From an uncultured Opitutia bacterium (GTDB lineage: Bacteria; Verrucomicrobiota; Verrucomicrobiia; Opitutales; Opitutaceae), in contig CAIOAO010000020.1 in the NCBI GenBank assembly GCA_903855985.1, forward strand, positions 1 to 44,773: a stretch of DNA of 44,773 nt. Direction: 5' to 3'. A model generated the notes under the pieces. It was not told the DNA's origin and ran no database searches. It worked only from the letters and a program-made list of their open reading frames with translations. Below, one piece after another: positions 4,308 through 42,908 of the stretch. Made by a program: the position numbers and the translations under genes. Numbering within the stretch: position 1 is the stretch's first letter; each line of letters starts with the position of its first letter.

Positions 4308-4421
4308 AGGAAGGGCAGCACCCTGAGGGGCTGGGCCGACCGGAGCCAGCCAGATTCACCGGGCCGGTGATGAGCGCCGGCATCGCCGCCTGCGCTCGCG
4401 GGGACGGTGGAGAGGTGGGCT

Positions 4422-4455
4422 GCGCAAATATTGCACAGTGTTTGGCAAGCTGCGC
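4422..4455 (+). promoter_or_regulatory. 21-bp-spaced repeat pair upstream of hemA
   Basis: Two CAA-N5-GC half-sites, 4422-4434 and 4443-4455, have their CAA triplets exactly 21 bp apart (4425 and 4446). A -10-like hexamer, gacact, lies at 4480-4485, 25 bp past the proximal half-site. This predicts a start near 4492 and a leader of about 19 nt. It belongs to the set of twelve such pairs described in the findings. Confidence 0.65.
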
Positions 4456-4510
4456 GGGGCGGGGTGGGCGGATTCCTGCGACACTGGCCGTGACCTAAAA
4501 CCAGCGAACC

Positions 4511-7054: not shown

Positions 7055-7090
7055 GGGGTGAGCTTACAGGGAGGCCCCCGGAATGGCCCT

Positions 7091-7124
7091 GCGCTTCTTG
7101 CCGAGAGGTACGCACTTATTGTCC
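7091..7124 (-). promoter_or_regulatory. 21-bp-spaced repeat pair upstream of hemG
   Basis: The half-sites lie at 7091-7103 and 7112-7124, with the TTG cores of the plus strand at 7098 and 7119, exactly 21 bp apart. Both match the CAA-N5-GC core on the hemG strand. A -10-like taagct lies at 7066-7061. It is one of two pairs, in opposite orientations, in this divergent region. Confidence 0.6.
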
Positions 7125-7162
7125 TGTGGGCCACGGGGAAACCGATCCGTGTGGGGGTCTAA

Positions 7163-12839: not shown

Positions 12840-12952
12840 CGGGCGGCGCGGGGGAGCGCAAGTCGGGGTGGGGTGGGTCCGAGGGGCGAAGCAAGGCGCA
12901 GGGGGAGCGCCTTACGGGCCTTACTCTCGTCGAAAACGGGCGAACCGGCTAC

Positions 12953-12986
12953 CGCTGGCTTGGCCGAAACGGCGCATTTCTTGGTG
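12953..12986 (-). promoter_or_regulatory. 21-bp-spaced repeat pair upstream of the DUF2339 gene
   Basis: Plus-strand TTG cores lie at 12960 and 12981, exactly 21 bp apart. The distal half-site (12974-12986) is a perfect core match; the proximal one has CG where GC is expected. A -10-like gagagt lies at 12928-12923. The pair sits between the porin terminator and the DUF2339 start, where that gene's promoter should be. Confidence 0.5.
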
Positions 12987-13004
12987 TCGGTGATTCAGGT
13001 TGGA

Positions 13005-15286: not shown

Positions 15287-15309
15287 GGCAGGGATGGGAT
15301 CGGGTTGGA

Positions 15310-16110: not shown

Positions 16111-16205
16111 GACGGGTGAAAATTGCAGTTGGTCTAGGGGGTGATGGGTAGGTGACTGCCTATTTTAGCAGTATCAGTATGCCAGAAGGGGGCGGGACCA
16201 TCGCC

Positions 16206-16239
16206 GCATGGTTTGGCGACTTATGCGCGTGAATTGCTG
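16206..16239 (-). promoter_or_regulatory. 21-bp-spaced repeat pair upstream of the MtrA-like gene
   Basis: Both half-sites (16206-16218, 16227-16239) match the core, with plus-strand TTG at 16213 and 16234. The -10-like catact lies at 16181-16176, identical to the one before the ccs operon. The pair overlaps the end of the upstream radical-SAM gene. It aligns closely with the hupE/PocR-AraC sites, sharing TTGGCGACT between the half-sites. Confidence 0.7.
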
Positions 16240-17561
16240 TGCGGATTCGCGGAAACTAATAGCGGGCTAACGTTACTGCGCAGATTAAGCCCTGCTTCTA
16301 GCTCCCCGGAAATGCGTTCGCGCATGGCGTCGCGATAGGTGTTCACGGAGCCAAAAAACTCCGACATCATCAGCATCAGCCAGTACATTCCCCGCTCGGT
16401 CAGCTGCCAGCCCCGGTCGGTGCGGCGCGCCGCCCCGAGCAGGCGCAGGGTGGCCAATTCACCCCAAACGGTGCGGAAAAACCGGGAACCGTAGCGGGCC
16501 CGGGCCCATTCCCGGTCCAAGCCGAGTCCGAACATTCTGACCAACAAGGTGTAGCGAATCTGATCACCTGCGCTCAGCTGGTGGTGGGCGGTGATGCCGG
16601 TCAAGCCGTGTCCCACCTGGGTCGCGTAGTGGGCGAGCGAGAACGTCGTGGCGTAGAGGATCCCGTCGAGGTAGCTGAAGGCGCCGCTCCCGACGCCGAC
16701 ATAGTTTTCAGCGGCGACGATATACTCGTCGCCGGCGGTGCCCTTCCGGGTAAAGCACCAGGCGGACGTGGGGGTGAAGTCCGGCTGGAGGCGCCGGAGA
16801 ATCGTGGCAAAGTACGGACGCAGGCGCCGCGTGTCGGGCACGCCCATCGCGGTGGTCATCCGCCGCTTCACGCTGGGCGCCGTCATCAACGGATAACACG
16901 AGACCTGGGTCACGCCGATTTCGCGGATGAGGTCGAGATCGCGCTCGAGTGAGGCGAGGGACTGGTGCGGCTGGTTGAAGATCAGGTCCACGTTGAGCGT
17001 CGGGAACAGGCCCGCGGCCGACTTGAGGCGGGCGATGATCTCCTCGGCGCTCCCGTATTTTTCGTAGCGCTCCATGTCGCGCAGGAGCTGGTTGTCGAAG
17101 CTCTGCACGCCCACCGACAACCGCGTCACACTGGCGGTGCGCAGCAGCTCGAGCAGCGGCGGCTGCAGCTCGTGGGGATTGGTTTCCACGGAGATCTCGC
17201 GCACGGGGAAAAGCTCCCGTACCAGCGCGATCGTCTGCCGCAGCTCCTCCGGCTCGATGGTCGGGGTCCCGCCGCCGAAATACACGCCGGTGAACCGGTA
17301 GCCCGCCTCGTGGTAGAGCCGGATTTCCGCGCGCAGCGCGGCGAAATACGGCACGGCCTGCCCGTGGCAGTGCTGCACGCGGTGGAACGAGCAGAACGGG
17401 CACAGCGAGGCGCAGAAGGGAATGTGGACGTACAGGTAGCACTCGCCGTCGGGCGGAGGACGCGGCACCTGCCCGGTCGCATCCACCATCTTCAGGAAAC
17501 CGCGGGTGCGGAACCGGAAGAGGCGGATGAGGGCCGAATCGATGAGCGGCCAGGCAGGCAT
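16221..17561 (-). CDS. HemN/HemW-family radical SAM protein (coproporphyrinogen dehydrogenase-like)
   Basis: 446 residues. YLYVHIPFCASLCPFCSFHR near residue 43 carries the CX3CX2C triad for the radical-SAM [4Fe-4S] cluster. Further family marks are YFGGGTPT (SAM-binding glycines), SVETNP, RLSVGVQSF and DLIFNQPHQS, and a HemN-type C-terminal domain follows. The typical HemN N-terminal tetrapyrrole-site motif (PRYTSYPT) is missing, so this is a HemW haem chaperone, a ChuW/HutW-like haem enzyme, or a dedicated variant. It begins 18 bp after the CbcL-like gene and is probably cotranscribed with it. A role in haem delivery to the cytochrome b or c domains is inference. A genuine HemN is encoded at 26680. 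Confidence 0.85.
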   Translation of the reverse strand: MPAWPLIDSALIRLFRFRTRGFLKMVDATGQVPRPPPDGECYLYVHIPFCASLCPFCSFHRVQHCHGQAVPYFAALRAEIRLYHEAGYRFTGVYFGGGTPTIEPEELRQTIALVRELFPVREISVETNPHELQPPLLELLRTASVTRLSVGVQSFDNQLLRDMERYEKYGSAEEIIARLKSAAGLFPTLNVDLIFNQPHQSLASLERDLDLIREIGVTQVSCYPLMTAPSVKRRMTTAMGVPDTRRLRPYFATILRRLQPDFTPTSAWCFTRKGTAGDEYIVAAENYVGVGSGAFSYLDGILYATTFSLAHYATQVGHGLTGITAHHQLSAGDQIRYTLLVRMFGLGLDREWARARYGSRFFRTVWGELATLRLLGAARRTDRGWQLTERGMYWLMLMMSEFFGSVNTYRDAMRERISGELEAGLNLRSNVSPLLVSANPHSNSRA

Positions 17562-19748: not shown

Positions 19749-19791
19749 GGGAGGATGCCAGAGCATGCTCCCATTACCCAGACCCTGCTCC

Positions 19792-19825
19792 GCGGGGTTT
19801 GGCCGAACGCACGCGTTTCTTGGTC
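19792..19825 (-). promoter_or_regulatory. 21-bp-spaced repeat pair upstream of the CbcL-like gene
   Basis: Perfect core half-sites lie at 19792-19804 and 19813-19825, with plus-strand TTG at 19799 and 19820. A weaker third copy begins near 19835. A -10-like catgct lies at 19767-19762, which would give a leader of only about 7 nt before the ATG at 19748. Confidence 0.62.
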
Positions 19826-19911
19826 TGTGCGCGCTCCGGCCTTGGCTCCGCTAATGCCTGTTTCACCCGCGATGCGGCGTGGGTGTCGGAGGGTGGTGGG
19901 CTTGCCCGCGA

Positions 19912-21562: not shown

Positions 21563-21898
21563 TCAGGCCTTGAACTTCCGGATGTAGGCGACGAGGTCCT
21601 GGACCTCGGCGGGCGTGAGATCCGAGTAGGCCTTCATCTTCTCCTTGCCGGTCTTGTCCTTGTAGCCGTCCACAATGACCTTGGCCATGTCCTCGTCCTT
21701 CAGGTCGGCCTGCACCTTGGCATCCGTATAGTCCTTCAGGGAAAGTTTCTTGCCGACCTTGGTCAGGCCCTTGCCGTCGGCGCCGTGGCACTTCGTGCAG
21801 AGGTTTTCCCAGTTTTCAGAGGCGGGAGCGGCATAGCCGAGGGCGGAGCCGAGGAGGAAAAGGAGGCTGACCGCCGTGATTTTGGAGCTGATTTTCAT
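21563..21898 (-). CDS. Periplasmic monohaem cytochrome c (class I), ImcH operon
   Basis: 111 residues. A signal peptide (about 1-24, ending GYAAP) precedes one CTKCH haem site near residue 34, and a probable axial Met lies in KEKMKAYSDLTPAEVQDL. Length, motif spacing and the GADGKG...KVGKKL stretch make it a paralogue of the cytochrome at 7287. Each heads an operon for a different inner-membrane quinol-oxidising module, which suggests a dedicated periplasmic carrier for each. A 21-bp repeat pair lies about 100 bp upstream. Confidence 0.9.
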   Translation of the reverse strand: MKISSKITAVSLLFLLGSALGYAAPASENWENLCTKCHGADGKGLTKVGKKLSLKDYTDAKVQADLKDEDMAKVIVDGYKDKTGKEKMKAYSDLTPAEVQDLVAYIRKFKA

Positions 21899-21973: not shown

Positions 21974-22032
21974 AGCACAATTGGGGCCCAGCGGCTGCGC
22001 ATCGCTTGCGGAGCTTCACGCAAAGCTTGCAC
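21974..22032 (-). promoter_or_regulatory. Repeat pair plus extra half-site upstream of the ImcH operon
   Basis: Perfect core half-sites lie at 21999-22011 and 22020-22032 (TTG at 22006 and 22027, 21 bp apart). An AATTG-containing third copy lies 25 bp nearer the gene (TTG at 21981). The 25+21 arrangement recurs at hupE. A -10-like taagtt lies at 21974-21969, giving a leader of about 64 nt. Confidence 0.65.
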
Positions 22033-22108
22033 AGGAGATTAGGGGAATTCATCGGACGGGCTGGATTTTAGTGGAGCCCGGGGTGGGGGCTCGCTTTTTG
22101 AGGGATTT

Positions 22109-22142
22109 TCGCAAGGAGTGGGCACAGCTGCGCAAGAAATGC
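22109..22142 (+). promoter_or_regulatory. 21-bp-spaced repeat pair upstream of the lipoprotein-ccsBA operon
   Basis: CAA triplets at 22112 and 22133 are 21 bp apart. The proximal half-site is a perfect core match; the distal one has GG for GC. The -10-like catact lies at 22167-22172. The predicted start near 22179 leaves only 6 nt before the ATG at 22185, which favours the ATG at 22242. Confidence 0.6.
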
Positions 22143-22241
22143 GCAGTCGTCCGGACTGACTTAGGTCATACTGTCAACCGCACCATGTCACGGTTCCAAT
22201 TCTCCCTGCCCCGGTCCCTCGTTTTGCCAGGGCGCACCTCA

Positions 22242-26300: not shown

Positions 26301-26470
26301 GGAGCTGGTTCGGCGTCAACATGCTCGGCGTCGGCCTGCACAGCTACGGCTTCATCGACGCCGCGTTCTGGTGGCTGCTGGCCTTTGTCGCCAGCCAGCT
26401 GGCCTTCATCGCGGTGACCGGTCTGCCGCTCCCGAGCTGGCGGAGTTTTAAGTCAGCCGGAGCGGCTTGA
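23393..26470 (+). CDS. ccsBA: Fused cytochrome c synthase CcsBA (ResB-CcsA)
   Basis: 1025 residues, a natural fusion of the two system II cytochrome c maturation proteins. It exports haem and attaches it to CXXCH sites outside the inner membrane. The N-terminal ResB part (about 1-430) has early helices (SLKLTVVLILFSIILVLVA), a large periplasmic domain and the FYQAGF segment. A periplasmic linker follows, then the CcsA part (about 725-1025). That part has the tryptophan-rich WWD-type motif WGRFWGWDPKENGALI and conserved histidines in ATHVVT and HSYGFID. The abundance of c haems in this window explains its presence. It shares the regulated promoter at 22109-22172. Confidence 0.95.
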   Translation: MKNLATLLRDARDLIVSLKLTVVLILFSIILVLVATLDQVNLGIWVVQQKYFNTFVVFWKTGNMSLAIFPGGYTIGGLLLLNLLAAHFYRFKLTWRKLGLWLTHAGLILLLVGQLLTGLMQDEYQLRLDQGQTKNFSESYRNVELAITDTSDLKYDEVIAIPEDRLVHKTPIQHPRLPFRVAVKTYLPNATLQMGLPPAGTADTTATQGVGPQILATLQPLTYKQDERNIPAAYVELTGPEGVIGTWLVSPFLDDPQHFTAGGRSWKIALRFARHYQPYSLTLLKFSHDKYAGTDIPKNFSSRLRLTTPDGRDDRDVLIYMNNPLRYAGLTFYQAGFQNNDMTTVLQVVRNPSWLIPYIACGVMTLGLVLQFGLHLVGFIGKRRALAAGSRGAAPGAAVPAVKVPWTPARLFPWVTLGVAVVIVIFSLFPPGASREYDLAGFGRLPTLVNGRIKPLDTVARTSLMVLQGRQRVKAGDGRSVSPEEWLLDVLYRPEQANAYRVFKIVHPDVLTLFNLTLEDGTSELRFTFNQLVKGLPELDRQAKLADSVESALRNSFQRGVIQLRDNIVLYESLGDSVVAPGVDDFLGHLAHFNETAPAGLAAVKAKQAGQPHDAAAAAALLELSNTFSSLESLAYLRPIPPATGKTDPKGWMNLGAALHQSLERGRLDGASATYVALGLAWRDQQPAKFNALVHEYRTSLEPEIPGFLSKVDLEARFNIAQPFYTSTILYVLAFLLAVFSWLKWPEALGRAALWLTGLAWVLTTAGILTRMWLEGRPPVTNLYSSALFIGWAAVALCLLLEVTYRNAIGSVAAGLIGFATLLIAHHLALGGDTLEMMRAVLDSNFWLATHVVTVTLGYSATFLAGFLALIYVIRGVFTRSLDAATADSLNRMVYGIVCFATVLSFVGTVLGGIWADQSWGRFWGWDPKENGALIIVLWNALILHARWGGLIKARGLMALAIFGNIVTAWSWFGVNMLGVGLHSYGFIDAAFWWLLAFVASQLAFIAVTGLPLPSWRSFKSAGAA

Positions 26471-26485
26471 TCGTCAACGGCCAGT

Positions 26486-26680
26486 GATTGCCCGCGAATC
26501 ACGCGAACTGACGCGAAATCCAGGCGACCACGGATTGCACACCGCAACCGGATCAATCCGAACCCTCCGAGCCTTTGCCGGGGCATTGAGATTGATCCGT
26601 GGCTTACGGTGTAATCCGTGGTTGATTGATTCCGAATCTGATGCCGGATCTTTCGCGCCGTTTTGCGTGATTCGCGGGCT
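26486..26680. repeat. Foldback (MITE-like) imperfect palindrome of about 195 bp
   Basis: Arms 26491-26504 and 26665-26678 are perfect 14-bp inverted repeats. Nested inside are further matching arms, 26529-26544 against 26608-26621, and a GATCAATC/GATTGATC pair. The whole could fold into one long hairpin. It fills the gap between the convergent ccsBA and hemN genes and has no coding potential. Such CGCGAATCACGC-rich foldbacks look like dispersed non-autonomous elements; copy number must be counted in the whole genome. Confidence 0.7.
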
Positions 26681-28050
26681 CAGACCGTGCGCGAGTGGCG
26701 CTTGGACTCCGGGGCGTAGTACGCGTCGAAGCAGACGGCGATATTGCGCAGGAACAGCCGGCCGAGGTCCGTGACCTGCAGGCCGCCGGGCGACAGCTTC
26801 ACGAGGCCGTCGGCCGCGAGGGGGGCGAGCCGGGCGATCTCCTTGGCGTACTTTTCGGCGAAATTGCAGGCGAAATCCCGGGAAAGCTGGGCGTAGTCGA
26901 GGCCCAGGTGACACATCACGCGCATGATAATCTCCCGGCGGTGGGTGTCCTCGTCGCTGAGCTCCACGCCGCGGATGGCGGGCAGCTCGCCGCGGTCGAG
27001 GGCGGCGTAGTAGGGCTCGAGGGTCTTGTGATTCTGCCGGTAGCTGTGCGGCGTCTGGGAAATCGCGGAGATGCCGAGCGCGAGGATTTCCACGCCGGCC
27101 TTGGTGCTGTAGCCTTGGAAATTGCGCTGCAGCGTGCGCGCGGCCTGGGCGACGGCGAGCTCGTCGGTCTCGCGGGCGAAGTGGTCCATCCCGATGTAAA
27201 CGTAGCCGCTGCGGGTGAGCGTCTCGGTGATGACCTTGAGCATGGACATCTTGGTCTCCGGGGACGGCAGCGCCGCCTCGCGTTCGAGGAGCTTCTGGGC
27301 GGGTTTCATCCACGGCACGTGCGCGTAGCTGAACACGGCGAGGCGGTCGGGCTGGATCTCCAGCACCTGGCGGAGCGTGTCGGTGAAGGATTCGACGGTC
27401 TGGTAGGGCAGGCCGTAGATCAGGTCGATGTTGATGGACGTGAATCCCTCCTCGCGCAGCCAGCGGATGGCCTGCTCGGTCATGGCGCGCGGCTGGATGC
27501 GGTGGACCGCGACCTGCACCTGGGGGTTGAAGTCCTGCACGCCGAGGGAGGCGCGAGTGAAGCCGCTCTCGCGCAGGGCGACCACCTGTTCCCGGCTCAG
27601 CCGGCGGGGGTCAATCTCGACGCTCAGCTCGGCGTCGGGGGCCAGCTGGAAGTGTTTCCGGGTGATGGCCGCGAGGCGGGCGAGCTGCGGGGCCTGGAAA
27701 AAGGTGGGGGTGCCGCCGCCGTAGTGCAGCTGGACCACCTGGCGGCCCGGGTGCACGCGCTTGGCCATGAGCTCGACCTCCTTTTCGAGGTAGTCGAGGT
27801 AGGTGTCGGGCAGCTTGTGGTTGGTGCTGATGACCGTGGTGCAGCCGCAGAACCAGCAGAGCGTCTCGCAGAACGGCAGGTGGAAATAGAGCGAAAGCGG
27901 CACGGAGGCATCCACGTTCGCCCGGTCCAGGTGCGCCAGGAGCGGGTCGGGCGTGGGGAAGTCCTTGAACTCCACCGCCGTGGGATAGGAGGTGTAGCGC
28001 GGGGCCGAGATATCGTATTTCCGGACGAGGTCTAAATCGACGGTGATCAA
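26680..28050 (-). CDS. hemN: Oxygen-independent coproporphyrinogen III dehydrogenase
   Basis: Radical-SAM enzyme that decarboxylates coproporphyrinogen III to protoporphyrinogen IX without O2. From the TTG at 28050 it has 456 residues, about the length of E. coli HemN (457). The N-terminus ITVDLDLVRKYDISAPRYTS carries the HemN-specific PRYTSYP motif. FHLPFCETLCWFCGC gives the CX3CX2C cluster site plus the extra family cysteine; YGGGTPTF and NIDLIYGLP follow. The frame stays open to an ATG at 28197, but that start would add about 49 residues not typical of HemN and would place the promoter-like repeats inside the gene, so TTG is preferred. Convergent with ccsBA, divergent from hypE. Confidence 0.93.
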   Translation of the reverse strand: MITVDLDLVRKYDISAPRYTSYPTAVEFKDFPTPDPLLAHLDRANVDASVPLSLYFHLPFCETLCWFCGCTTVISTNHKLPDTYLDYLEKEVELMAKRVHPGRQVVQLHYGGGTPTFFQAPQLARLAAITRKHFQLAPDAELSVEIDPRRLSREQVVALRESGFTRASLGVQDFNPQVQVAVHRIQPRAMTEQAIRWLREEGFTSINIDLIYGLPYQTVESFTDTLRQVLEIQPDRLAVFSYAHVPWMKPAQKLLEREAALPSPETKMSMLKVITETLTRSGYVYIGMDHFARETDELAVAQAARTLQRNFQGYSTKAGVEILALGISAISQTPHSYRQNHKTLEPYYAALDRGELPAIRGVELSDEDTHRREIIMRVMCHLGLDYAQLSRDFACNFAEKYAKEIARLAPLAADGLVKLSPGGLQVTDLGRLFLRNIAVCFDAYYAPESKRHSRTV

Positions 28051-28099
28051 AGTGGTGGGAGGTTGGCTGAGATTAGCAGACGCCGGTCCTTCCGGCCAC

Positions 28100-28133
28100 G
28101 CCCCGGTTGCTGGAGGCTGGGCATTTCTTGCTA
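28100..28133 (-). promoter_or_regulatory. 21-bp-spaced repeat pair upstream of hemN
   Basis: Perfect core half-sites lie at 28100-28112 and 28121-28133 (plus-strand TTG at 28107 and 28128). The -10-like taatct lies at 28075-28070, predicting a start near 28063 and a 13-nt leader to the TTG codon. Confidence 0.65.
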
Positions 28134-28170
28134 TGATCCGGGGCGAGTCCAGCCGGGAAAACGGTGATTC

Positions 28171-28204
28171 GGCCAAGATCTGCGTGGTGAATCGCAAGAC
28201 CTGC
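28171..28204 (+). promoter_or_regulatory. 21-bp-spaced repeat pair upstream of hypE
   Basis: Perfect core half-sites (28171-28183, 28192-28204) have CAA at 28174 and 28195. A -10-like gatgat lies at 28229-28234. The pair points away from the hemN pair 38 bp to its left, so each divergent gene has its own correctly oriented set. The leader to hypE would be about 124 nt. Confidence 0.65.
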
Positions 28205-28364
28205 CGCGCCGCAAACCCGGGATCCTGCGATGATGTTACCCGTTGGTAATCCCAGTCACCCCATGAACCCTTACCCCCAGGTCGCCCGAAAGGTGTCGCC
28301 GATTCCCCTGGAATCGGCCGCGCCGACGCCGCCCTGGTCGGTTGCGGGCTAGCAATAGCAAACG

Positions 28365-34058: not shown

Positions 34059-34403
34059 TCAGGGAAATTCCAGGCGGGCGATGCCCAGTTCGCGGCCGGC
34101 GCGGATTTCGCCGGAGAACGCGTGACATTGCGGGCATTCGAAAATGAAGCCGCGGCCGGCGCCGAACTCGGTGCGGCACGAGGCGCAGTAGGCGCGGGCC
34201 GGCACGGTTTCGATCTCGAGCACGGCGCCGTCGGCGAGGCTGCCCGGCGTCAGCGCCTCGTAGGCGAATCGCAGCGCTTCCTGGTCCACCCCGGCCAGGG
34301 TGCCGATGCGCAGCACGATCCGCGACACGCGCGTGGCGTTGTGGTTCACGGCCTGCTGCCGGATGGCGTCCAACGCCGACTGCATGATACCGACCTCGTG
34401 CAT
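34059..34403 (-). CDS. hypA: Hydrogenase nickel metallochaperone HypA
   Basis: 114 residues. Starts MHEVGIMQSAL, with His2 as nickel ligand. The zinc domain has CASC near residue 73 and CPQC near 90. The start at 34403 is chosen because MHEV is the functional N-terminus; the frame stays open upstream to 34427. First gene of hypABFCD, divergent from the hydrogenase operon. Confidence 0.95.
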   Translation of the reverse strand: MHEVGIMQSALDAIRQQAVNHNATRVSRIVLRIGTLAGVDQEALRFAYEALTPGSLADGAVLEIETVPARAYCASCRTEFGAGRGFIFECPQCHAFSGEIRAGRELGIARLEFP

Positions 34404-34436: not shown

Positions 34437-34456
34437 TCCAGCGTGTGGGGTCAGAT

Positions 34457-34490
34457 TCGCAAGATACGCTCAGTTTTTGCCAAGTGACGC
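34457..34490 (+). promoter_or_regulatory. 21-bp-spaced repeat pair upstream of the hydrogenase operon
   Basis: Perfect core half-sites have CAA at 34460 and 34481. A -10-like element (ggtact at 34513-34518, or tactgt at 34515-34520) lies 23-25 bp past the pair. Predicted leader is about 73 nt. Confidence 0.68.
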
Positions 34491-34599
34491 ACAACGGCGC
34501 GTGGCCCGTTCCGGTACTGTGGCCCAACCCCGAACCCCGTGTTGTAACCCTCCCCCGCGCTGCGTGCCCGTTTCCGGCCGTACCCGCACCTTCCATCCC

Positions 34600-35757
34600 A
34601 TGTCCCTCGAACTCGAAACCCTCCCCAAGGAACAGACGATCTACGACCAAGTCATCGCCCGCGGCGTCTCGCGCCGGGAATTCCTCGGCTTCTGCGCCTG
34701 GATTGGCGCGTGCATCGGCGTGCAAGGTGCCGGCGTCGACCAGGTGGTCAAGGCCCTCGAGACCAAGAAGCGCATCCCGGTGATCTGGCTTCATTTTCAG
34801 GAGTGCACCTGCTGCAGCGAGTCCTTCCTGCGCAGCTCGCACCCGATCGTCGCTGACATCCTCCTCGACAAGATCTCGCTGGACTACACGGAGACACTGA
34901 TGGCGGCCTCGGGCCACCAGGCCGAGCAGGCGCTGCAGGACACCATTGCGAAGTACAAGGGTGAGTACCTCCTCTGCATCGAGGGCTCCGTGCCGCTCGC
35001 GGAGGACGGGGTCTATTGCTGCATCGGCGGCAAGTCGGCCAAGGGCATTGCGGAGGAATGTGCGGAGCATGCCAAGGCGATCATCGCCTGGGGCAACTGC
35101 GCCTGTTCCGGCTGCGTGCAGGCCGCGAAACCCAATCCGACGCAGGCGACGCCGATCAAGAAGGTCATCGCCGGCAAGCCGATCATCAACGTCCAGGGCT
35201 GCCCCCCGATCGCGGAGGTCATGGCCGGCGTGCTGGTGCACCTGCTGGCCTTTGATGCCATCCCGGAGCTGGACAACCTCGGCCGCCCGAAGGCCTTCTA
35301 CTCCCGCCGGGTCCACGACACGTGCTACCGCCGCCCGAACTTCGACGCCGGCCTCTTTGTCGAGAGCTTCGACGACGAGAATGCGCGGAAGGGCTACTGC
35401 CTCTACAAGGTCGGCTGCAAGGGCCCCACGACCTACAACTCCTGCGGAACGATCCGCTGGAACGGCGGCGTCAGCTTCCCGATCCAATCGGGCCATCCGT
35501 GCATCGGCTGCTCCGAGGAAAACTTCTGGGACAAGGGTCCGTTCTACGAGCGCCTGCCCGACTTCCCGGGCTTTGGCGTCGAGGCCACGGCCGACACGCT
35601 GGGCAAGGTCGCCCTCGGGGCCGCGGCGGTGGGCGTGGCCGCACACGCGGTCATGACAAACTTCCGCAAGCGCAACGAAATCGGCGAACAGACCGGCGAA
35701 AACGCCGAAAGGGCGGAAAAAGCCGACACCGCCGTGACCGACGACCATTCCATCTAA
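34600..35757 (+). CDS. hyaA: [NiFe] hydrogenase small subunit, O2-tolerant group 1 type
   Basis: 385 residues; periplasm-facing electron-transfer subunit. Tat signal SRREFLGFC lies at residues 24-32 and a C-terminal membrane anchor near 325-345. The proximal cluster site has six cysteines: C69, C71 and C72 in ECTCCSES, C167 and C172 in GNCACSGCVQ, and C201 in GCPP. C71 and C172 are the two extra ones that build the [4Fe-3S] cluster of O2-tolerant enzymes. The spacings 98, 5 and 29 equal those of E. coli Hyd-1 (17, 115, 120, 149). C169 is a further nearby cysteine. Start at 34600 gives the signal peptide its normal length. First gene of the hydrogenase operon. Confidence 0.95.
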   Translation: MSLELETLPKEQTIYDQVIARGVSRREFLGFCAWIGACIGVQGAGVDQVVKALETKKRIPVIWLHFQECTCCSESFLRSSHPIVADILLDKISLDYTETLMAASGHQAEQALQDTIAKYKGEYLLCIEGSVPLAEDGVYCCIGGKSAKGIAEECAEHAKAIIAWGNCACSGCVQAAKPNPTQATPIKKVIAGKPIINVQGCPPIAEVMAGVLVHLLAFDAIPELDNLGRPKAFYSRRVHDTCYRRPNFDAGLFVESFDDENARKGYCLYKVGCKGPTTYNSCGTIRWNGGVSFPIQSGHPCIGCSEENFWDKGPFYERLPDFPGFGVEATADTLGKVALGAAAVGVAAHAVMTNFRKRNEIGEQTGENAERAEKADTAVTDDHSI

Positions 35758-35775
35758 CTTCTACCCCACAGCCCC

Positions 35776-37494
35776 ATGAGCACCCGCATTGTAGTTGATC
35801 CAGTCACCCGCATCGAAGGCCATCTCCGGATCGAGGCCGAAATCAAGGACGGCAAGATCGTTGACGCCTGGAGCGCCGGCACGATGGTGCGCGGCTTGGA
35901 GATCATCCTCAAGGGTCGCGACCCGCGCGACGCCTGGGCGTTCTGCGAGCGCGTCTGCGGCGTCTGCACCACGATCCACGCGCTGGCCTCCGTGCGCGCG
36001 GTCGAGGACGCCGTCGACATCAAGATCCCGCCGAACGCCGAGCTGATCCGGAACATCATGTTCTGCGCGCAGTACATGCAGGACCACGTCGTGCACTTCT
36101 ACCACCTCCACGCGCTGGACTGGGTGGACGTCGTCAGCGCCCTGAAGGCCAACCCCGCCGCCACGTCGACGCTGGCCCAGAGCATCTCGCACTGGCCCAA
36201 GAGCTCGCCGGGCTATTTCTCGGATATCCAGAAACGCCTGACGAAGTTCGTCGAGAGCGGCCAGCTGGGCATCTTCGCCAACGGCTACTGGGGCCACCCC
36301 GCGTACAAGCTCCCGCCCGAGGCCAACCTCATGGCGGTGGCGCATTACCTCGAGGCGCTCGAGTGGCAGAAGGAGATCGTCAAGATCCACACCATCTTCG
36401 GCGGCAAGAACCCGCACCCGAACTATCTGGTCGGCGGCATGCCGTGCTCGATCAACATCAACGAGGCGAACGCGATCAACGCCGAGCGCCTCGCGATGGT
36501 CGGCGACCTGCTCAAGCAGGGCCAGCAGTTCATCGAGCAGGTCTACATTCCCGACGTCCTCGCGGTCGCCCCGTTCTACCTGGACTGGGCGGGCATCGGT
36601 GGCGGCCTGGACAACTACCTCTGTTACGGCGACCTGCCGACCAACGGCTTCTCCGACATCAGCAGCTACAAGTTCCCGCGCGGCGCCATCCTGGGCCGCG
36701 ACCTGAGCACCGTGCACCCGGTGGACCCGCGCGACGACACGGGCATCCAGGAATTCATCGACCACTCGTGGTACGAATACGAGGGCGCCGCCGCCGGCCT
36801 GCATCCGTGGAAGGGCGAGACGAAGCTCAAGTATTCCGGCCCCAAGCCGCCCTACGCCAATCTCGACACCGACGCGAAGTACAGCTGGCTGAAGACGCCG
36901 CGCTGGAAGGGCCACGCCATGGAGGTCGGCCCGCTCTCCCGCATGCTCGTCGGCTACGCCGCGGGCAATGCCGAGATCAAAGACGCCGTCACCGCGACGC
37001 TGGGCGCCCTCAACGCGCCCCCTTCGGTCCTCTTCTCGACGCTCGGCCGCACCGCGGCCCGCGCCATCGAGTCGCAACTCGCCGCCCGCTGGGGCCTGGA
37101 TTTCTACAACCAGCTCCTCGCGAACATCAAGGCGGGCGACACCCGGACCTTCACGCGCGAAAAGTGGGAGCCGTCCTCCTGGCCGAAGCAGGCCAAGGGC
37201 GTCGGCACCTGCGAGGCGCCCCGCGGCGCACTCGCGCACTGGATCGTCATCAACGAGCAGAAGATCGAGAATTACCAGCTGGTCGTCCCGAGCACCTGGA
37301 ACGCATCGCCCCGCGATGCCAAGGGTCAGCGCTCCGCCTACGAGGCCTCGCTCATCGGCACCCCGGTGCACGATCCCCAACAGCCGCTGGAGATCATCCG
37401 CACGATCCACTCGTTCGATCCCTGCCTCGCCTGTGCAGTGCACCTGTACGAGGACAAGAAGGAAATCGCCCGCCACGATGTGATGGTCAACTGA
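35776..37494 (+). CDS. hyaB: [NiFe] hydrogenase large subunit
   Basis: 572 residues, catalytic H2-oxidising subunit. Nickel-site cysteine pairs are ERVCGVCTTIHA near residue 61 and DPCLACAVH near residue 551. The His of the last motif is followed by a 16-residue extension, which the HyaD-type protease at 38313 would remove after metal insertion. DPVTRIEGHLRIE near residue 9 is the family's N-terminal motif. It starts 18 bp after the small subunit; no signal of its own, so it is co-exported with the small subunit. Confidence 0.97.
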   Translation: MSTRIVVDPVTRIEGHLRIEAEIKDGKIVDAWSAGTMVRGLEIILKGRDPRDAWAFCERVCGVCTTIHALASVRAVEDAVDIKIPPNAELIRNIMFCAQYMQDHVVHFYHLHALDWVDVVSALKANPAATSTLAQSISHWPKSSPGYFSDIQKRLTKFVESGQLGIFANGYWGHPAYKLPPEANLMAVAHYLEALEWQKEIVKIHTIFGGKNPHPNYLVGGMPCSININEANAINAERLAMVGDLLKQGQQFIEQVYIPDVLAVAPFYLDWAGIGGGLDNYLCYGDLPTNGFSDISSYKFPRGAILGRDLSTVHPVDPRDDTGIQEFIDHSWYEYEGAAAGLHPWKGETKLKYSGPKPPYANLDTDAKYSWLKTPRWKGHAMEVGPLSRMLVGYAAGNAEIKDAVTATLGALNAPPSVLFSTLGRTAARAIESQLAARWGLDFYNQLLANIKAGDTRTFTREKWEPSSWPKQAKGVGTCEAPRGALAHWIVINEQKIENYQLVVPSTWNASPRDAKGQRSAYEASLIGTPVHDPQQPLEIIRTIHSFDPCLACAVHLYEDKKEIARHDVMVN

Positions 37495-37510
37495 ACCGGA
37501 GGCCCACCCC

Positions 37511-38260
37511 ATGAACGCCTCGCACGATTACCAACGCGTCTACGTGTGGCAGCAGCCGGTGCGCTGGTTCCACTGGATCAATGCCCTCGCGATCATCACC
37601 CTCGGCGTCACCGGCTGGCTGATCACGCATCCGCCGGCCCTGATGAATTCCGGGGAGGCCTGGACGAGCTTCTGGTTCGGCAAGGTGCGCTTCGTGCACT
37701 TCGCCAGCGGCTACGTGCTGCTCGCGAACTTCCTGGTGCGGATCTACTGGTCCTTCGCCGGCAACAAGTACGCCAGCTGGCGCAACTTCCTGCCGCTGAC
37801 CAAGGCGCAGGTGCGCGAGGTCTGGCAGGTGCTCAAGGTCGACATCATGCAGTCGAGTGACAAGGCCGTGCATGCGCTCGGGCACAATGCCGTGGCCTAT
37901 TTCACCTATGCCGCCACGGGCTTGCTGACGGTTTTCCAAGTGGTCACCGGCTTCGCGCTCATGGCGCCGACGAGCCAGTCGTGGATCCCGCGCCTGTTCA
38001 CCTGGGTGACGCCCCTGTTCGGCAGCGAGGGCTCCGTGCGCACCTTCCATTACGCCGGCATGTGGCTGTTCGTCATCTTCACCTTCATCCATGTCTACCT
38101 CGTGTTCTACCACGACTACGTGGAGGGCCATGGCGTGATGTCCTCGATCATCGGCGGCTGGAAATTCATGGAGAAGCACAAGATCGCCGCGCAGGAAGCC
38201 ACCGGCATCTCGGGCCTGCCCACGAAATCCCGCAAGGCCGGATCGCGACCCAAGGCCTGA
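37511..38260 (+). CDS. hyaC: [NiFe] hydrogenase b-type cytochrome subunit
   Basis: 249 residues with four main membrane helices. It anchors the hydrogenase and passes electrons to (mena)quinone through two b haems. Histidines in VRWFHWINALA, VRFVHFASGYV, VHALGHNAVAYF and FTFIHVYLVFYHDYVEGHG fit the HyaC/HupC family pattern. Starts 16 bp after the large subunit. Its presence makes the enzyme a membrane-bound uptake hydrogenase of the Hyd-1/group 1d layout. Confidence 0.95.
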   Translation: MNASHDYQRVYVWQQPVRWFHWINALAIITLGVTGWLITHPPALMNSGEAWTSFWFGKVRFVHFASGYVLLANFLVRIYWSFAGNKYASWRNFLPLTKAQVREVWQVLKVDIMQSSDKAVHALGHNAVAYFTYAATGLLTVFQVVTGFALMAPTSQSWIPRLFTWVTPLFGSEGSVRTFHYAGMWLFVIFTFIHVYLVFYHDYVEGHGVMSSIIGGWKFMEKHKIAAQEATGISGLPTKSRKAGSRPKA

Positions 38261-38312
38261 CGGCCGGGCGGATCCTTCCGACTTGTCCCTCCCACCGTCC
38301 CAACCCCGCCCC

Positions 38313-38852
38313 ATGATCAGCCTGATTGACACCACACTCGTGGGGGAGGCCTTTGCGACCAGCGCCCCGGTCAATCCCGGCGACCGCATCCTGGTGCTCG
38401 GCATCGGCAATCTGCTGATGGGTGACGAGGGCGCGGGCGTGCATGCGCTGCGCTGGCTTGAGGCGGAGCCGCCGCTGGCGGGCGTCCGCCTGCTCGATGG
38501 CGGCACCGGCGGGGCCAACCTGCTGGGGGAATTTGAGGGCCGGCGGGCGGTCATCCTGATTGATGCGACCCGCGATGGCTCCGTGGCCGGCACCGTGGTC
38601 TACCGTCACCTCAAGCTGGGCCGGACCTTTGATCTGCCGAAGAGCCTGAGTGCGCATGACTTTGGCCTGAAGGATCTCTTCGCCGCCGCCGCCCTGATCG
38701 GCACGCTGCCGGAGATCCATCTCTACACGATCGCGGTGGAAACGCTTCACCCGATGTGCACGGTGCTGTCGCCGGAGGTGGAGGCCGCGATCCCGGAGGT
38801 TGTGCACTCGGTGCATGCGCTGGCCGCCCGGCTGTCTTCCTCGCTGGATTGA
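38313..38852 (+). CDS. hyaD: Hydrogenase maturation protease (HyaD/HybD family)
   Basis: 179 residues from the ATG at 38313 (a TTG at 38283 is in frame). Removes the C-terminal extension of the large subunit. VLGIGNLLMGDEGAGVHAL near residue 28 contains the nickel-sensing Glu of the HybD fold; DGGTGG and LIDATRDG follow, with the metal-binding His in the AHDFGLKDL region. Last gene of the hydrogenase operon. Confidence 0.95.
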   Translation: MISLIDTTLVGEAFATSAPVNPGDRILVLGIGNLLMGDEGAGVHALRWLEAEPPLAGVRLLDGGTGGANLLGEFEGRRAVILIDATRDGSVAGTVVYRHLKLGRTFDLPKSLSAHDFGLKDLFAAAALIGTLPEIHLYTIAVETLHPMCTVLSPEVEAAIPEVVHSVHALAARLSSSLD

Positions 38853-39054: not shown

Positions 39055-39083
39055 AAAAACCACCTAACGAAATGAAGCGGGCC

Positions 39084-39665
39084 TCAGCTGGCGAGGAGCC
39101 CCGCGCCCACGGCCGCGATGCCCCAGCCGAGCAGGCGGGGAGCCCGCTCTGAGAGCCGGGCGGTGCCGAGACCCAGGCCGAGGCCGGAGGCGGCGAGAAG
39201 GGCGGTGGCGGCCACGAAACCGGCGCCATAGGCGAGTCCGCTGCTGGTGGCGGGCATTTCCGCCCCGTGGGCGAGACCGTGGAACATGGCAAAGATTGCG
39301 GCGAGCGTCACACTGGCGCCGAGCGGTAGGCGGCCGGCACAGGCCACGAGCAGGCCGAGCGCCAGCACGGAGGCGGCGAGGCCCTGGTCGAGGCCGGGGA
39401 TGACCCCGATGAAATGACCGCCAATGGCCGACAGCGCCATCACGCCAACAAAGGCGGCTGGCACACGCCAGCTGGCGCGACCCCCGAGTTGGGCGGCCCA
39501 CAGGCCGATGGCGATCATCGCGACGAGGTGATCCCAGCCGGTCAACGGGTGGGAGAAACCGCACGCGACACCATTGGCCTGCGCAGCGCCCGGGTGGGCC
39601 AGCGCGGCTGACGTGGCAGCAAGAAAGAGGGAGCCGGCAAGCAGGGAGGAAGATTTGGATTTCAT
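39084..39665 (-). CDS. hupE: HupE/UreJ-family membrane protein (probable nickel permease)
   Basis: 193 residues. A signal-like first helix ends SAALAHPG, and about six membrane helices follow. The HupE/UreJ motif HPLTGWDHLVAMIAIGLWA near residue 39 and FAMFHGLAHGAEMP near residue 127 carry the histidines thought to bind Ni. It probably supplies nickel for the hydrogenase. Divergent from the PocR-AraC regulator, with three repeat copies in between. Confidence 0.93.
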   Translation of the reverse strand: MKSKSSSLLAGSLFLAATSAALAHPGAAQANGVACGFSHPLTGWDHLVAMIAIGLWAAQLGGRASWRVPAAFVGVMALSAIGGHFIGVIPGLDQGLAASVLALGLLVACAGRLPLGASVTLAAIFAMFHGLAHGAEMPATSSGLAYGAGFVAATALLAASGLGLGLGTARLSERAPRLLGWGIAAVGAGLLAS

Positions 39666-39744
39666 GGGGTAGGGGAAGGGGGGTACGGCGTAGAGAGTAG
39701 TCGCAAACCCCCGCCGGTGCATCGCGGTTCTTGCCGTACACTCC

Positions 39745-39803
39745 GCACCAATTGTCCCGCACTTTTTGCGCATCACTTGGCGACTCCTGCGCATCAATTG
39801 TCC
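39745..39803 (-). promoter_or_regulatory. Triple repeat between hupE and the PocR-AraC gene
   Basis: Three copies lie at 39745-39757, 39770-39782 and 39791-39803, with TTG at 39752, 39777 and 39798, i.e. spacing 25 then 21 bp. They point as for hupE. The outer two share CAATTGTCC. The -10-like box is poor here (cggagt at the expected offset). The position, 52 bp before the regulator's start, also fits autoregulation. Confidence 0.68.
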
Positions 39804-39854
39804 TGCGGGCTGTGTTCGCTTGCCGGCCCGGGGGACGGGGCGTAACCGACAGTC

Positions 39855-40763
39855 ATGCCAGTACCCGACGCTCTCCGCCCGAAACGCACGCTCGTCGACC
39901 AGCTCCGCGCCTCGCCCATTTACCGCGACTATGCGAAGGCCTTCCGCGAGACCACGGGTCTGCCCCTGAACCTGCGCGAGCTCGAGAGCTTCGACCTGCC
40001 GTTTCACGGCGATCCGAATCAGAACCCCTTCTGCGAGCTGATGGCCGGCGCCAACCACACCTGTGCGGGCTGCCTGCAGCTGCAGCGGAAAGTGGAGGAG
40101 GGCGCGGGCGGGGAGGCAAAGACCCTCACGTGTTTTGCCGGACTGAGCGACTCGGCGGTCCCGGTCAAGGTGGGCGAAAACCTGGTGGCTTTCCTCCAGA
40201 CCGGGCAGATCCTGCTGCGCGAGCCGACCGCGGCCCAGTTGCAGAAGCTCTCGCGGGTGCTGCGAAAATACGGCGTGGCGACGGAGCTGGAAAGATACGA
40301 GGCGGCCTACCGCCGGAGCCGCGTGGTGCCGCAGCGGCAGTACCGCTCGATCCTGCAGCTCCTGACAATTTTTGCACAGCATCTCTCCACCCTGAGCAAC
40401 CAGCTGGTGGTCCAGGACGTGACGGAGGAGGCACCCGCCATCAGCCGCGCGCGGGCCTACATCACCGAGCACCACGGGGAGGAAATGACGCTCACGGGCG
40501 TGGCCCGGGCGGTGAACATGAGCGCCTTCTATTTCTGCAAGAGCTTCCGCAAGGCGACCGGGCTGACGTTCACCCATTATGTTGCCCGGGTGCGGGTCGA
40601 GAAGGTGAAAGACCTGCTGCTCAACCCGAACAAGCGGGTGAGCGAGGCGGCCTACGAGGCCGGCTTCCAGTCGCTGTCCCAGTTCAACCGCGTCTTCCGC
40701 CGCATTGCCGGGGAGCCGCCCTCGACGTACCGGGAGAAAGTGCGTTCCGGGGCGTTGACCTGA
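39855..40763 (+). CDS. PocR-domain AraC-family transcription regulator
   Basis: 302 residues. The N-terminal half (about 20-135) is a PocR-type sensory domain with four cysteines, C60, C70, C73 and C93 (FCELM..., HTCAGC, LTCFAGL), which could bind a metal, cluster or haem or act as a thiol switch. The C-terminal part (about 200-297) is an AraC/XylS DNA-binding domain with two helix-turn-helix units: MTLTGVARAVNMSAFYFCKSF and VSEAAYEAGFQSLSQFNRVFR. Such proteins typically bind direct repeats two helical turns apart. Its place beside hupE, next to three copies of the 21-bp-spaced motif, makes it the best candidate for the regulator of the repeat-bearing genes in this window. Confidence 0.92.
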   Translation: MPVPDALRPKRTLVDQLRASPIYRDYAKAFRETTGLPLNLRELESFDLPFHGDPNQNPFCELMAGANHTCAGCLQLQRKVEEGAGGEAKTLTCFAGLSDSAVPVKVGENLVAFLQTGQILLREPTAAQLQKLSRVLRKYGVATELERYEAAYRRSRVVPQRQYRSILQLLTIFAQHLSTLSNQLVVQDVTEEAPAISRARAYITEHHGEEMTLTGVARAVNMSAFYFCKSFRKATGLTFTHYVARVRVEKVKDLLLNPNKRVSEAAYEAGFQSLSQFNRVFRRIAGEPPSTYREKVRSGALT

Positions 40764-40780: not shown

Positions 40781-41338
40781 TCAGGCCGGAGCGTGGTGCA
40801 GCGGATGGTGCTCGTGGTCCGCGGGGAGGGTCAGGGCCGAATGCTTGGGCTCAGGAACGGCTTTGTCTGATCCCTCGCGAAACTGGCAGATGGCGCAGAA
40901 GGACTGGATTTCGCGCTGGGCGATGTGGCTGAACACCTGCTCCAGGCAGGTCAGCGCCTCGTCCCGCTGCGGCGCGGTCAGGCCCGGGGCGAGCACCTGC
41001 GCCAGCACGAGACCCTCGCGCAGGGCCTGTCGCCCGGCCGAGAAATAGGCCAGGAGCGGATTGCGACCGCAGGGACAATGCGGTTCCGCGTGGCGGGTAT
41101 GAAGCCGGCGGGCCGACCAGATCCGCAGGGTCGAGAACACCTCATTCAACGTGGTGTCGAGCAGGTGGACCAGCGTGTCCGGATTGGCCAACGGCGAATT
41201 CATCCGCTCGATCCGCAGGAGGTTCTCCCAATTGGACCGAATGCAGGGGCGATGTGCCTCCAGGGCCTGCAATATGACCGTTTCCACAAATGAAAATATC
41301 CCAGAAAGCCCCGACTCCCGCTCATCACCGCTTGGCAA
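40781..41338 (-). CDS. Unknown Cys/His-rich protein convergent with the PocR-AraC gene
   Basis: Up to 185 residues, of no family I recognise. Mostly helical, with no membrane segment. It has CPCGRNPLLAYF in the middle, FCAICQF near residue 150 and a histidine-rich end (DHEHHPLHHAPA), so a metal or cluster site is possible. The start is uncertain: besides 41338, a GTG at 41287 and an ATG at 41203 are in frame, and a tentative repeat pair (TTG at 41332 and 41353) favours a later one. It lies 17 bp from the regulator's stop. A partner or sensor role is a guess. Confidence 0.65.
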   Translation of the reverse strand: MPSGDERESGLSGIFSFVETVILQALEAHRPCIRSNWENLLRIERMNSPLANPDTLVHLLDTTLNEVFSTLRIWSARRLHTRHAEPHCPCGRNPLLAYFSAGRQALREGLVLAQVLAPGLTAPQRDEALTCLEQVFSHIAQREIQSFCAICQFREGSDKAVPEPKHSALTLPADHEHHPLHHAPA

Positions 41339-41378: not shown

Positions 41379-42668
41379 TCACCCGCCCGGGTGCAGGGTC
41401 CGGCAGTCGCGCTCCAGTTCCGCCCGGAAGTCGGGATGCGCGATCGAAATCAGGGCGGCGGCACGTTCCCGCAGCGTCCGGCCATGGAGGTTCACCGGCC
41501 CGTACTCCGTGACCACCCAGTGCACGTGGCCGCGTGTGGTGACCACGCCGGCCCCGGCCGCGAGCTGGAAGGAAATGCGCGACACGCGGCCGCTGGCGGC
41601 CGTCGAGGGCAGCGCGATGATCGGCCGGCCGCCCGGTGACAGCGCGGCGCCGCGGATGAAGTCCATCTGGCCGCCGATGCCGGAGTAGATCCGGTGCCCG
41701 ATGGAGTCGGCGCAGACCTGGCCGGTGAGGTCGATCTGGATCGCGGAGTTGATGGCGACCACCTTCGGATTCCGGCGGATCACCGAGGTGTCGTTTGTCC
41801 AGTCGCAGGGATGGAAGGCGACCAGGGGGTTGTCATGGACGAAATCGAAGAGCCGGCGGGTGCCATTGATGAAGCTGGTGACGATGCGGCCGGGGGAGAC
41901 CGCCTTGAGGCGGTTGGTGATGACGCCGGCCTCGACCAGGTCCACGACGCCGTCGGAAAACATCTCGGTATGAATCCCCAGGTCATGCTTGCCGTGCAGG
42001 CGGGCGAGCACGGCGTCGGGAATGCCCCCGATGCCCATCTGGAGGGTGGAACCGTCCTCCACGAGTCCGGCCACCAGCTCCCCGATGCGGGCCTCGACGA
42101 CGGTTTCGGGGGCGGGCCGGTGCTCGACCAGGGGCCGGTCGGTGGCCACGAAGGCATCGATCTGGTCGAACGGGAGGACGTTGTTGCCGTGGGTGCGCGG
42201 CATCTGCTCGTTGATTTCCGCAATGATCACGCGGGCGGTCGTGGCCGCGGCGCGGGCAGCGTCGCAGGAGGTGCCCAGCGAGCACATGCCATGGCGGTCG
42301 GGGGGCGAAACCTGCAGCAGGGCGACGTCGAGCGGCACACTGCCGCTCAGGAACAGGGCGGGGATGTCGGACAGGAAGATCGGGATGAAGTCGGCGCGGT
42401 CCTCGGCGACGGCCTGGCGCAGCGGGGCGCCGGTAAAGAGGGACACCGAGCGGAATTCACGCTCGCGGCCGCTCGCGGCAAACGGCGCGGGCCCGGCGGT
42501 GTGCAGGTGGTAAAGCTTCACCCCTTCGAGGTCATGCCGGGCGCACAGCGCCTCGATCAACGGGGCGGGCGTGGCGCAGGCCCCGTGGATGAAGACATTG
42601 GTGCCGCTCCGGACAAAAGCGGCGGCATCAGCGGGTGACACGGCGGAGGATTTCCAGTCGGGACTCAT
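41379..42668 (-). CDS. Acetyl-CoA hydrolase/4-hydroxybutyrate-type CoA-transferase
   Basis: 429 residues, cytoplasmic. Family I-type CoA-transferase: an N-terminal Rossmann-like half (VFIHGACATPAPLIEAL) and a C-terminal half with LQMGIGGIPDAVL. The catalytic glutamate is likely in GIHTEMFSDGVVDL (about residue 242), as in acetyl-CoA hydrolases and 4-hydroxybutyrate CoA-transferases. IGGQMDFIRGA and VVTEYGPVNL also fit. It could exchange CoA between acetate and other short acids in fermentation. AT-rich DNA (TTAATATTATT) just upstream may hold its promoter. I see no convincing 21-bp repeat pair. Confidence 0.92.
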   Translation of the reverse strand: MSPDWKSSAVSPADAAAFVRSGTNVFIHGACATPAPLIEALCARHDLEGVKLYHLHTAGPAPFAASGREREFRSVSLFTGAPLRQAVAEDRADFIPIFLSDIPALFLSGSVPLDVALLQVSPPDRHGMCSLGTSCDAARAAATTARVIIAEINEQMPRTHGNNVLPFDQIDAFVATDRPLVEHRPAPETVVEARIGELVAGLVEDGSTLQMGIGGIPDAVLARLHGKHDLGIHTEMFSDGVVDLVEAGVITNRLKAVSPGRIVTSFINGTRRLFDFVHDNPLVAFHPCDWTNDTSVIRRNPKVVAINSAIQIDLTGQVCADSIGHRIYSGIGGQMDFIRGAALSPGGRPIIALPSTAASGRVSRISFQLAAGAGVVTTRGHVHWVVTEYGPVNLHGRTLRERAAALISIAHPDFRAELERDCRTLHPGG

Positions 42669-42908
42669 GGGAGGATAAGTTAATATTATTCTGGGCGGAT
42701 CATCCGGGAAGCGAAGCGCCGATGCTGGGCTTGGAATGGGAAATTGTCCGCATTTTTTGTGGTCCATGGGCGAGGGCGGATTTTAGACGGGCCGGAGGCG
42801 CGTCCCGATGGGCCCAGCCCGGGCCGCGAAAACGCCCGGTTTCCAGCGGTTTTGAGGTGCGGAAATGAACCTTGCCCGGCGGCGGCCCGCTGGCCACGGT
42901 GCGCGGCA

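Follow-up and report, generated by a model that had tools for sequence, protein, structure and literature searches.

A PocR-AraC protein of Opitutaceae as a candidate counterpart of FNR acting through a 21-bp tandem repeat

Introduction

A PocR-AraC protein encoded by an uncultured member of the Opitutaceae is likely to be a global regulator of low-oxygen and anaerobic respiration in this family, a counterpart of FNR, Anr and FixK which would act through a tandem repeat with a spacing of 21 bp. The DNA analysed here, referred to as the window, is a stretch of 44,773 nucleotides and represents contig C20 of a 2.94-Mb genome. In the titles and abstract openings of the literature searched, no description of this regulator of Opitutaceae was found.

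The proposed role offers a testable answer to how a mostly uncultured group switches between oxygen, fermentation, hydrogen and respiration with multihaem cytochromes without a detected FNR, and cultured strains exist in which the role of the regulator can be tested. The site matrix obtained predicts the regulon in Opitutaceae genomes. A role is suggested for a branch of PocR-AraC proteins which has had only a domain name, and an uncharacterised partner protein with four cysteines is flagged. For PocR domains, a respiratory context would be added to that of propanediol sensing.

The Regulator and Its Gene

The regulator contains a PocR domain at residues 25-181 (Pfam PF10114, E 5.5e-23, 81.9 bits against a cut-off of 23.9) and an AraC double helix-turn-helix (HTH) at about residues 190-300, in which HTH_18 (PF12833) matched residues 217-294 above its cut-off (E 8.5e-25) and PF00165 also matched. 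A Crp-type HTH was absent among its Pfam matches at E<=0.001. Cysteines are located at positions 60, 70, 73, 93 and 228; the first four had been named in the first-pass annotation as belonging to the PocR domain, and all are present. It was also correct that no second AraC-type gene lies in the window, as an HMM derived from the HTH half of the regulator matched one single six-frame ORF at E<=1. The gene had been placed at 39745 to 40763; its end agrees, while the ORF begins at 39855 and position 39745 lies inside the first motif copy.

The protein fails the NCBIfam equivalog model for PocR (NF047788) with 89.9 bits against a cut-off of 500, and no pdu or cob genes are present among the annotated genes of the window. 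The structure model of the regulator (mean pLDDT 85, pTM 0.56) has AraC-type HTH proteins as fold neighbours with Z up to 16.7, and its PocR part resembles IclR/GAF ligand domains with Z of about 9-10. A sequence search for a solved PocR structure gave HTH matches only, the missing match being no evidence for a new fold.

The 21-bp Repeat in the Window

The pattern TGCGCATCAATTGTCC, with up to 3 mismatches, was identified four times in the window against 0.34 expected, a count reached in none of 100 shuffles. The half-site core GCAYCANTTG, with up to one mismatch, was not enriched in the window (18 found, 18.0 expected), so the signal is the 21-bp pair and not the single half-site, and the search for single half-sites was rejected as evidence. 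For 20 regulator-bearing genomes, picked mostly for high counts, 153 matches were obtained at a spacing of 21 bp, against 9 at 20 bp and 8 at 22 bp. For a site matrix, 47 pairs taken from other genera served as the training set, none of them from the window or its five closest genomes. In the window, this matrix gave 16 matches of at least 12 bits at 21 bp, and no other spacing between 15 and 35 had more than 3; on 40 first-order Markov shuffles, the mean was 0.075 matches. The 16 matches reduce to 13 separate pairs, none of which lies in a gene, and all 13 are canonical to some gene, with the start codon in the same orientation at a distance of 22-157 bp (Table 1). The genes were called with a codon-score caller trained on window genes, a few of whose training labels were wrong, and in divergent regions a pair was assigned to a single gene by the orientation rule.

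Table 1: Motif pairs of the window and the genes at the regulator locus.
Feature	Position	Strand	Distance	Remarks
Pair upstream of hemA	4419..4459	-	52 bp to start	26.3 bits; GlutR_N by Pfam
Weak pair upstream of hemG-like amine oxidase gene (5630-7054)	7087..7127	+	33 bp (160 bp to the cytochrome gene at 7287)	12.9 bits
Pair upstream of DUF2339-like membrane protein gene	12949..12989	+	110 bp	19.4 bits
Pair upstream of 7-CXXCH cytochrome (15310-16110) and putative outer-membrane porin (13070-15286)	16202..16242	+	92 bp	27.0 bits; by CXXCH count
Pair upstream of 11-CXXCH cytochrome (17580-19766) and PRK08629-type radical SAM gene (16221-17561)	19788..19828	+	22 bp	18.9 bits
Pair upstream of the genes for a one-CXXCH protein (21563-21898) and a NapC/NirT cytochrome (19968-21461)	21995..22035	+	97 bp	32.8 bits
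Pair upstream of 22242-23387 and ResB/CcsA (23393-26470)	22106..22146	-	96 bp	30.6 bits
Pair upstream of hemN (26680-28050)	28096..28136	+	46 bp	20.8 bits
Pair upstream of hypE	28168..28208	-	157 bp	18.2 bits
Pair upstream of NiFe hydrogenase operon (34600-38852)	34454..34494	-	106 bp	18.1 bits; divergent hypA (34059-34403)
hupE, divergent from the regulator gene	39084..39665	-		PF04955, E 2.8e-50
Weak upstream pair, half-sites at 39720 and 39741	39720..39760	+		14.5 bits
Strong 21-bp pair	39766..39806	+	101 bp to hupE start, canonical; 49 bp to regulator start, reversed	33.8 bits (other-genera matrix)
PocR-AraC regulator gene	39855..40763	+		302-aa ORF; PF10114 and PF12833
p40781, uncharacterised helical protein of ~169 aa, neighbour of the regulator	40781..41287	-		CxC and CxxC
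Pair upstream of CoA-transferase gene (41379-42668)	42725..42765	+	57 bp	18.5 bits

The hemN gene of the window was identified with TIGR00538 (580 bits, cut-off 325). The plus-strand ORF at 26695-28035 is spurious, the gene there being hemN on the minus strand. The frame 39064-39666 at the hupE position was rejected, being without a Pfam match, in favour of 39084-39665. A 1314-aa ORF from position 163 was mostly rejected, because it overlaps an H+-pyrophosphatase gene on the opposite strand; only its later part, with a GHL6 match, is likely to be real. On the minus strand of 13070-16110, the 7-CXXCH cytochrome is followed by a 738-aa protein without a Pfam match, probably an outer-membrane porin, which by eye has a start resembling a signal peptide and is probably a beta-barrel.

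The Promoter of the Regulator Gene

Three motif copies with the spacing 25 + 21 had been described beside the regulator gene, and they were found at 39741, 39766 and 39787, upstream of its start codon. A weak fourth half-site is present at 39720, 21 bp upstream of the copy at 39741, so that the promoter contains two 21-bp pairs, at 39720-39760 and at 39766-39806. Among the 13 pairs of the window, these two are counted for hupE; seen from the divergent hupE, the pair before the regulator gene is thus in canonical orientation, and seen from the regulator it is reversed.

In six genomes (that of the window, G085, G124, G130, G017 and G071), a pair is located at -89/-68 from the start of the regulator gene, to within 1 bp. 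The five genomes compared with that of the window are its closest relatives by search; the regulators of the six are 76-100% identical, and the position of the pair is the same whether the upstream gene is hupE, hypB or another one. For G071 and G130, the pair lies upstream of the regulator even though no divergent gene is present there. The locus L093, with a regulator of 76% identity, also has a pair upstream of the gene. No pair was found upstream of the gene at L094, the regulator of which (71%) falls inside the clade of the window's regulator. When 24 homologues with 64-69% identity were scanned with the first matrix, which is of the window type, up to 450 bp from the respective gene (69 bp for L027), no site scored above 12. 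Among the matches listed, G010, G056 and G083, which represent one other genus, have pairs that precede the regulator gene by about 90 bp and lie on the same strand. In G025, a CoA-transferase gene lies just upstream of the regulator, and the promoter of this CoA-transferase gene has two pairs.

Two further loci were observed. At L148, a more distant regulator paralogue (55%) adjoins hemA and genes for a cytochrome, FeS, NrfD and porin-like proteins, and is without a clear upstream pair of its own. On contig C19 of G130 (L072, L073), the regulator and the cytochrome cluster are kept and the hya/hyp genes are absent at the locus, except for a hyaD-like gene.

Codistribution of Regulator and Repeat in Opitutaceae

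The first-pass annotation had linked the regulator to the motif by inference from proximity and repeat geometry. This link is now strongly supported at the sequence level by codistribution in 150 Opitutaceae genomes and by the same upstream position in the six genomes and at L093. In these 150 genomes, which are related to one another, GCGCAnnnnTTG-N9-GCGCAnnnnTTG, the 21-bp tandem, gave 443 matches with up to one mismatch against 82 for a control pattern, the reversed repeat. The 102 genomes with a regulator at E<=1e-100 account for 396 matches of the repeat against 60 of the control; 16 genomes with a weaker homologue only have 16 against 14, and 32 genomes without a regulator match have 31 against 8. 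The counts per genome are complete, apart from 12 genomes without a match that do not appear in the table of the regulator search. With genomes as units, the first and the last group differ with p 8e-10 (Mann-Whitney). When genus means were averaged, 3.92 was obtained for 35 genera with the regulator and 0.99 for 29 genera in which it is weak or missing (p 1.6e-7, uncorrected for phylogeny). Within 15 mixed genera, the regulator-bearing genomes contain more sites in 10, fewer in 4 and an equal number in one (p 0.015).

Regulator and repeat are not distributed independently over the 150 genomes; however, there are exceptions in both directions. G030 (98% complete) and G128 (99%) contain good sites and no regulator at E<=1e-20, and G002 and G032 contain a regulator at E<=1e-100, yet no site with up to one mismatch. 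The sites without a regulator lie on contig C3 of G030 (L212), before a multihaem cytochrome gene, and on contig C218 of G128 (L213). Some of the listed matches in regulator-less genomes are one recurring sequence, which may be a conserved coding stretch.

Sites and Regulator Loci in Other Genomes

In 572 kb of fetched regions, of which 15% are intergenic, 98 separate sites scored 20 bits or more, one of them in a gene. The orientation is canonical only for 42 of these, both for 46 (divergent promoters) and reversed only for 4, two of which belong to the promoter of the regulator gene itself, in G071 and G130; 5 are without a near gene. The median distance from site to start is 66.5 bp. Because many regions were fetched for the sites they held, and the fetched regions also supplied the 47 training pairs, the count of 98 shows placement and orientation and not a rate of discovery.

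Canonical sites precede hydrogenase or hyp genes in G136, G025 and G133. Others were found before genes for pyruvate:ferredoxin oxidoreductase (PFOR), for 2-oxoacid:ferredoxin oxidoreductase (also in the genome of the window) and for NuoA, and before hemN elsewhere too. In the genome of the window, canonical sites are also present before a universal stress protein gene and before small genes which precede cbb3 genes. The regulators of G025 and G066 (66% identical) are clustered with cytochrome, FeS, NrfD and CoA-transferase genes. Here, G025 has pairs in the divergent promoter between the p40781 homologue and an operon with ccoNO, ccoG and a metal P-type ATPase gene, and in G066 the regulator is followed by a fused ccoNO gene.

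Among the 88 genomes with both a regulator and a ccoN above cut-off in the matches listed, 69 have a copy of the regulator no more than 10 kb from ccoN, with a median distance of 2.4 kb. For the remaining 19, ccoN and regulator are on different contigs in 15 and more than 2 Mb apart in 4 (G071, G013, G046, G005). A further 15 genomes have a ccoN above cut-off and no listed regulator; 8 of them contain none at E<=1e-20 and 7 a weak one only.

A Second Copy in the Genome of the Window

A second copy of the regulator, 62% identical, is encoded on contig C74 (208493-209371), about 6 kb from ccoN in a cbb3 locus with the same motif. In a quick tree with many weak forks, the window clade (6 rows, SH-aLRT 99) stands apart from the branch of this copy. 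All of 30 homologue rows agree at residues 270-281 of the second HTH; in the first HTH, S, T or M occurs at position 230 and R or K at position 232. The C74 copy agrees with the window protein at 270-283, most of the helix region of the second HTH, and differs at 230, 232 and 233 of the first. Both copies may read the same sites. The description of the window protein as master of the regulon stands in that sites precede most operons of the cluster; sole mastery does not, and "the" master is too strong, because the same genome contains the second copy.

The Cysteines of the PocR Domain and the Neighbour p40781

The four cysteines of the PocR domain had been regarded as suitable for a metal, Fe-S, haem or thiol signal. 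C60, C70, C73, C93 and also C228 are invariant in 47 homologues with identities down to 47%, but three of the four are general to PocR domains. For comparison, 30 Verrucomicrobiota loci were searched and gave 29 rows (L240 being without a row), 3 of which are Opitutaceae relatives of the regulator family; in this alignment, judged by eye, C60, C73 and C93 are present in 29 of 29 PocR domains and C70 in 11. The set of four therefore represents a variant, seen in a subset, of what is a general feature of PocR domains, and the three common cysteines alone give no pointer to metal, haem or redox sensing. That oxygen or redox is the signal of the regulator is a conclusion we infer by reasoning, and that its PocR domain would hold an Fe-S cluster is a guess.

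The neighbouring p40781 is predicted to be all-helical and has neither a Pfam or NCBIfam match nor a Foldseek match at E<=0.001. Fold comparison gave globin- or phycobiliprotein-like matches, including a stressosome domain and a globin-coupled sensor, with Z of 8-10, which is weak for a helical protein. Its C72, C74, C132 and C135 are kept in at least 90% of 41 rows. A homologue (E<=1e-6) is present in 57 of 77 named regulator loci, mostly convergent, often less than 160 bp away and in some cases several kb off. In G071, a homologue with 31% identity lies near ccoN, with sites between them.

Search for FNR

In 10 genomes searched with PF13545 (24 matches listed), no FNR with the cysteines was found. 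Twenty of the 24 loci were compared, the other 4 being below cut-off, and by mutual similarity four proteins are CRP-like, one in G085, two in G003 and one in G136. None of these four contains the four-cysteine set of FNR. The other 16 have no convincing similarity to them (one short match, E 0.37), and those with a listed ORF, which L221 and L224 lack, look by eye like MarR, other regulators or RpoN. Both PF13545 matches in the genome of the window are of the non-CRP kind.

Proposed Mechanism and Alternatives

A dimer of the regulator would bind asymmetric half-sites, roughly CTGCGCAnnnnTTG, which are repeated directly in tandem at a distance of 21 bp or two helical turns. In the window, binding in the canonical orientation is predicted to activate hemA, hemN, cytochrome c maturation, multihaem cytochromes, the NiFe hydrogenase and the CoA-transferase; in relatives, it would activate the cbb3 oxidase and PFOR. 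At the regulator's own promoter, the opposite-facing pair suggests autoregulation of another kind, possibly repression. The least certain step is that activity would follow oxygen or redox via the four-cysteine PocR domain, perhaps together with p40781. The C74 copy probably shares the sites of the window protein.

Who reads the repeat can be argued in other ways. It is somewhat unlikely that the repeat of the window is read mainly by the C74 copy, the window gene being a secondary or specialised paralogue. The identity of both copies at residues 270-283 and the sites which the C74 copy has in its own cbb3 locus would fit such a division, as would the presence of the repeat in genomes like G025 and G066, which contain only copies from outside the window clade. 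However, all six genomes retain the pair before the window-type gene, and in G017 the one regulator listed is of the window type, yet sites are present both at its gene and at the p40781 homologue. That a different transcription factor, co-occurring with the regulator gene, binds the repeat is quite improbable. The sites of G030 and G128 and the missing pair at L094 would be explained by such a factor, whereas the clustering of sites on the regulator's contig (C55 of G025, C17 of G066) and in its promoter, and a tandem 21-bp repeat, the geometry expected of an AraC-type dimer, speak for the regulator itself.

A separate question is the signal. PocR senses propanediol, and the regulator might likewise sense a small organic metabolite, such as an alcohol, an acid or a CoA-derived product, with the respiratory genes following the carbon supply and not oxygen. 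PocR domains were described, in the parts of the papers available, as predicted sensors of simple hydrocarbon derivatives (PMC4207490, PMC5847659, PMC11784639, PMC1592074). The general nature of C60, C73 and C93 and the resemblance of the model to IclR/GAF ligand-binding domains point in the same direction, and so does the CoA-transferase, an apparent target the gene of which adjoins the regulator in 21 of 77 named loci. Nevertheless, this reading is considered unlikely: cbb3, hemN, hemA, hydrogenase, PFOR and multihaem cytochromes are the target set of FNR, Anr and FixK and share no single carbon source.

The preferred reading thus remains a global low-oxygen regulator, and the predicted targets lend good support to an FNR-like role. 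In its fullest form, Opitutaceae would be without FNR and its role would be taken by an AraC-type protein with an oxygen-labile Fe-S cluster on C60, C70, C73 and C93, aided by the globin-fold p40781, and in the lineage of the window the regulon would have been divided between the two copies, one half with cbb3 and the other with hydrogenase and cytochromes. As a combination, this is rather unlikely.

Comparison to Known Systems

The 7-CXXCH cytochrome of the window beside the 738-aa porin-like protein resembles the porin-multihaem cytochrome clusters described for freshwater Verrucomicrobia (PMC5615132). The term FNR is absent from that paper, and both passages on a "regulator" concern other systems.

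The closest likeness in domain order is to PocR of Salmonella, the AraC-type regulator of propanediol and cobalamin genes (NF047788), in which a PocR domain also precedes an AraC HTH; C60, C73 and C93 correspond to the cysteines shared by all 29 PocR domains of the alignment. The Opitutaceae protein differs in that C70 completes a CxxC, CFAG stands where CHAG is more usual, and the predicted targets are respiratory, with no pdu or cob genes among the annotated genes of the window.

FNR, Anr and FixK of the CRP-FNR family control cbb3, hemN, hemA, hydrogenase, PFOR and genes of the multihaem cytochrome type, and the FNR site is a palindrome. The apparent regulon of the Opitutaceae regulator is similar, with cbb3, hemN, hydrogenase, cytochromes and anaerobic pyruvate metabolism, and four cysteines are likewise located in the sensory half. 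For hemN, Anr-boxes upstream of the gene are mentioned in the portion of PMC6588701 available. In contrast to this family, the fold and the HTH are unrelated and the site is a tandem 21-bp direct repeat.

Binding of a site with this geometry is known from AraC of E. coli, for which the half-sites at araI1-I2 are tandem, direct and 21 bp apart. The HTH fold is also shared (2k9s, Z 13.1, rmsd 2.5 over 106). Unlike E. coli AraC, the regulator of Opitutaceae contains a PocR sensory domain in place of the arabinose-binding one, and its predicted target set is global and not local.
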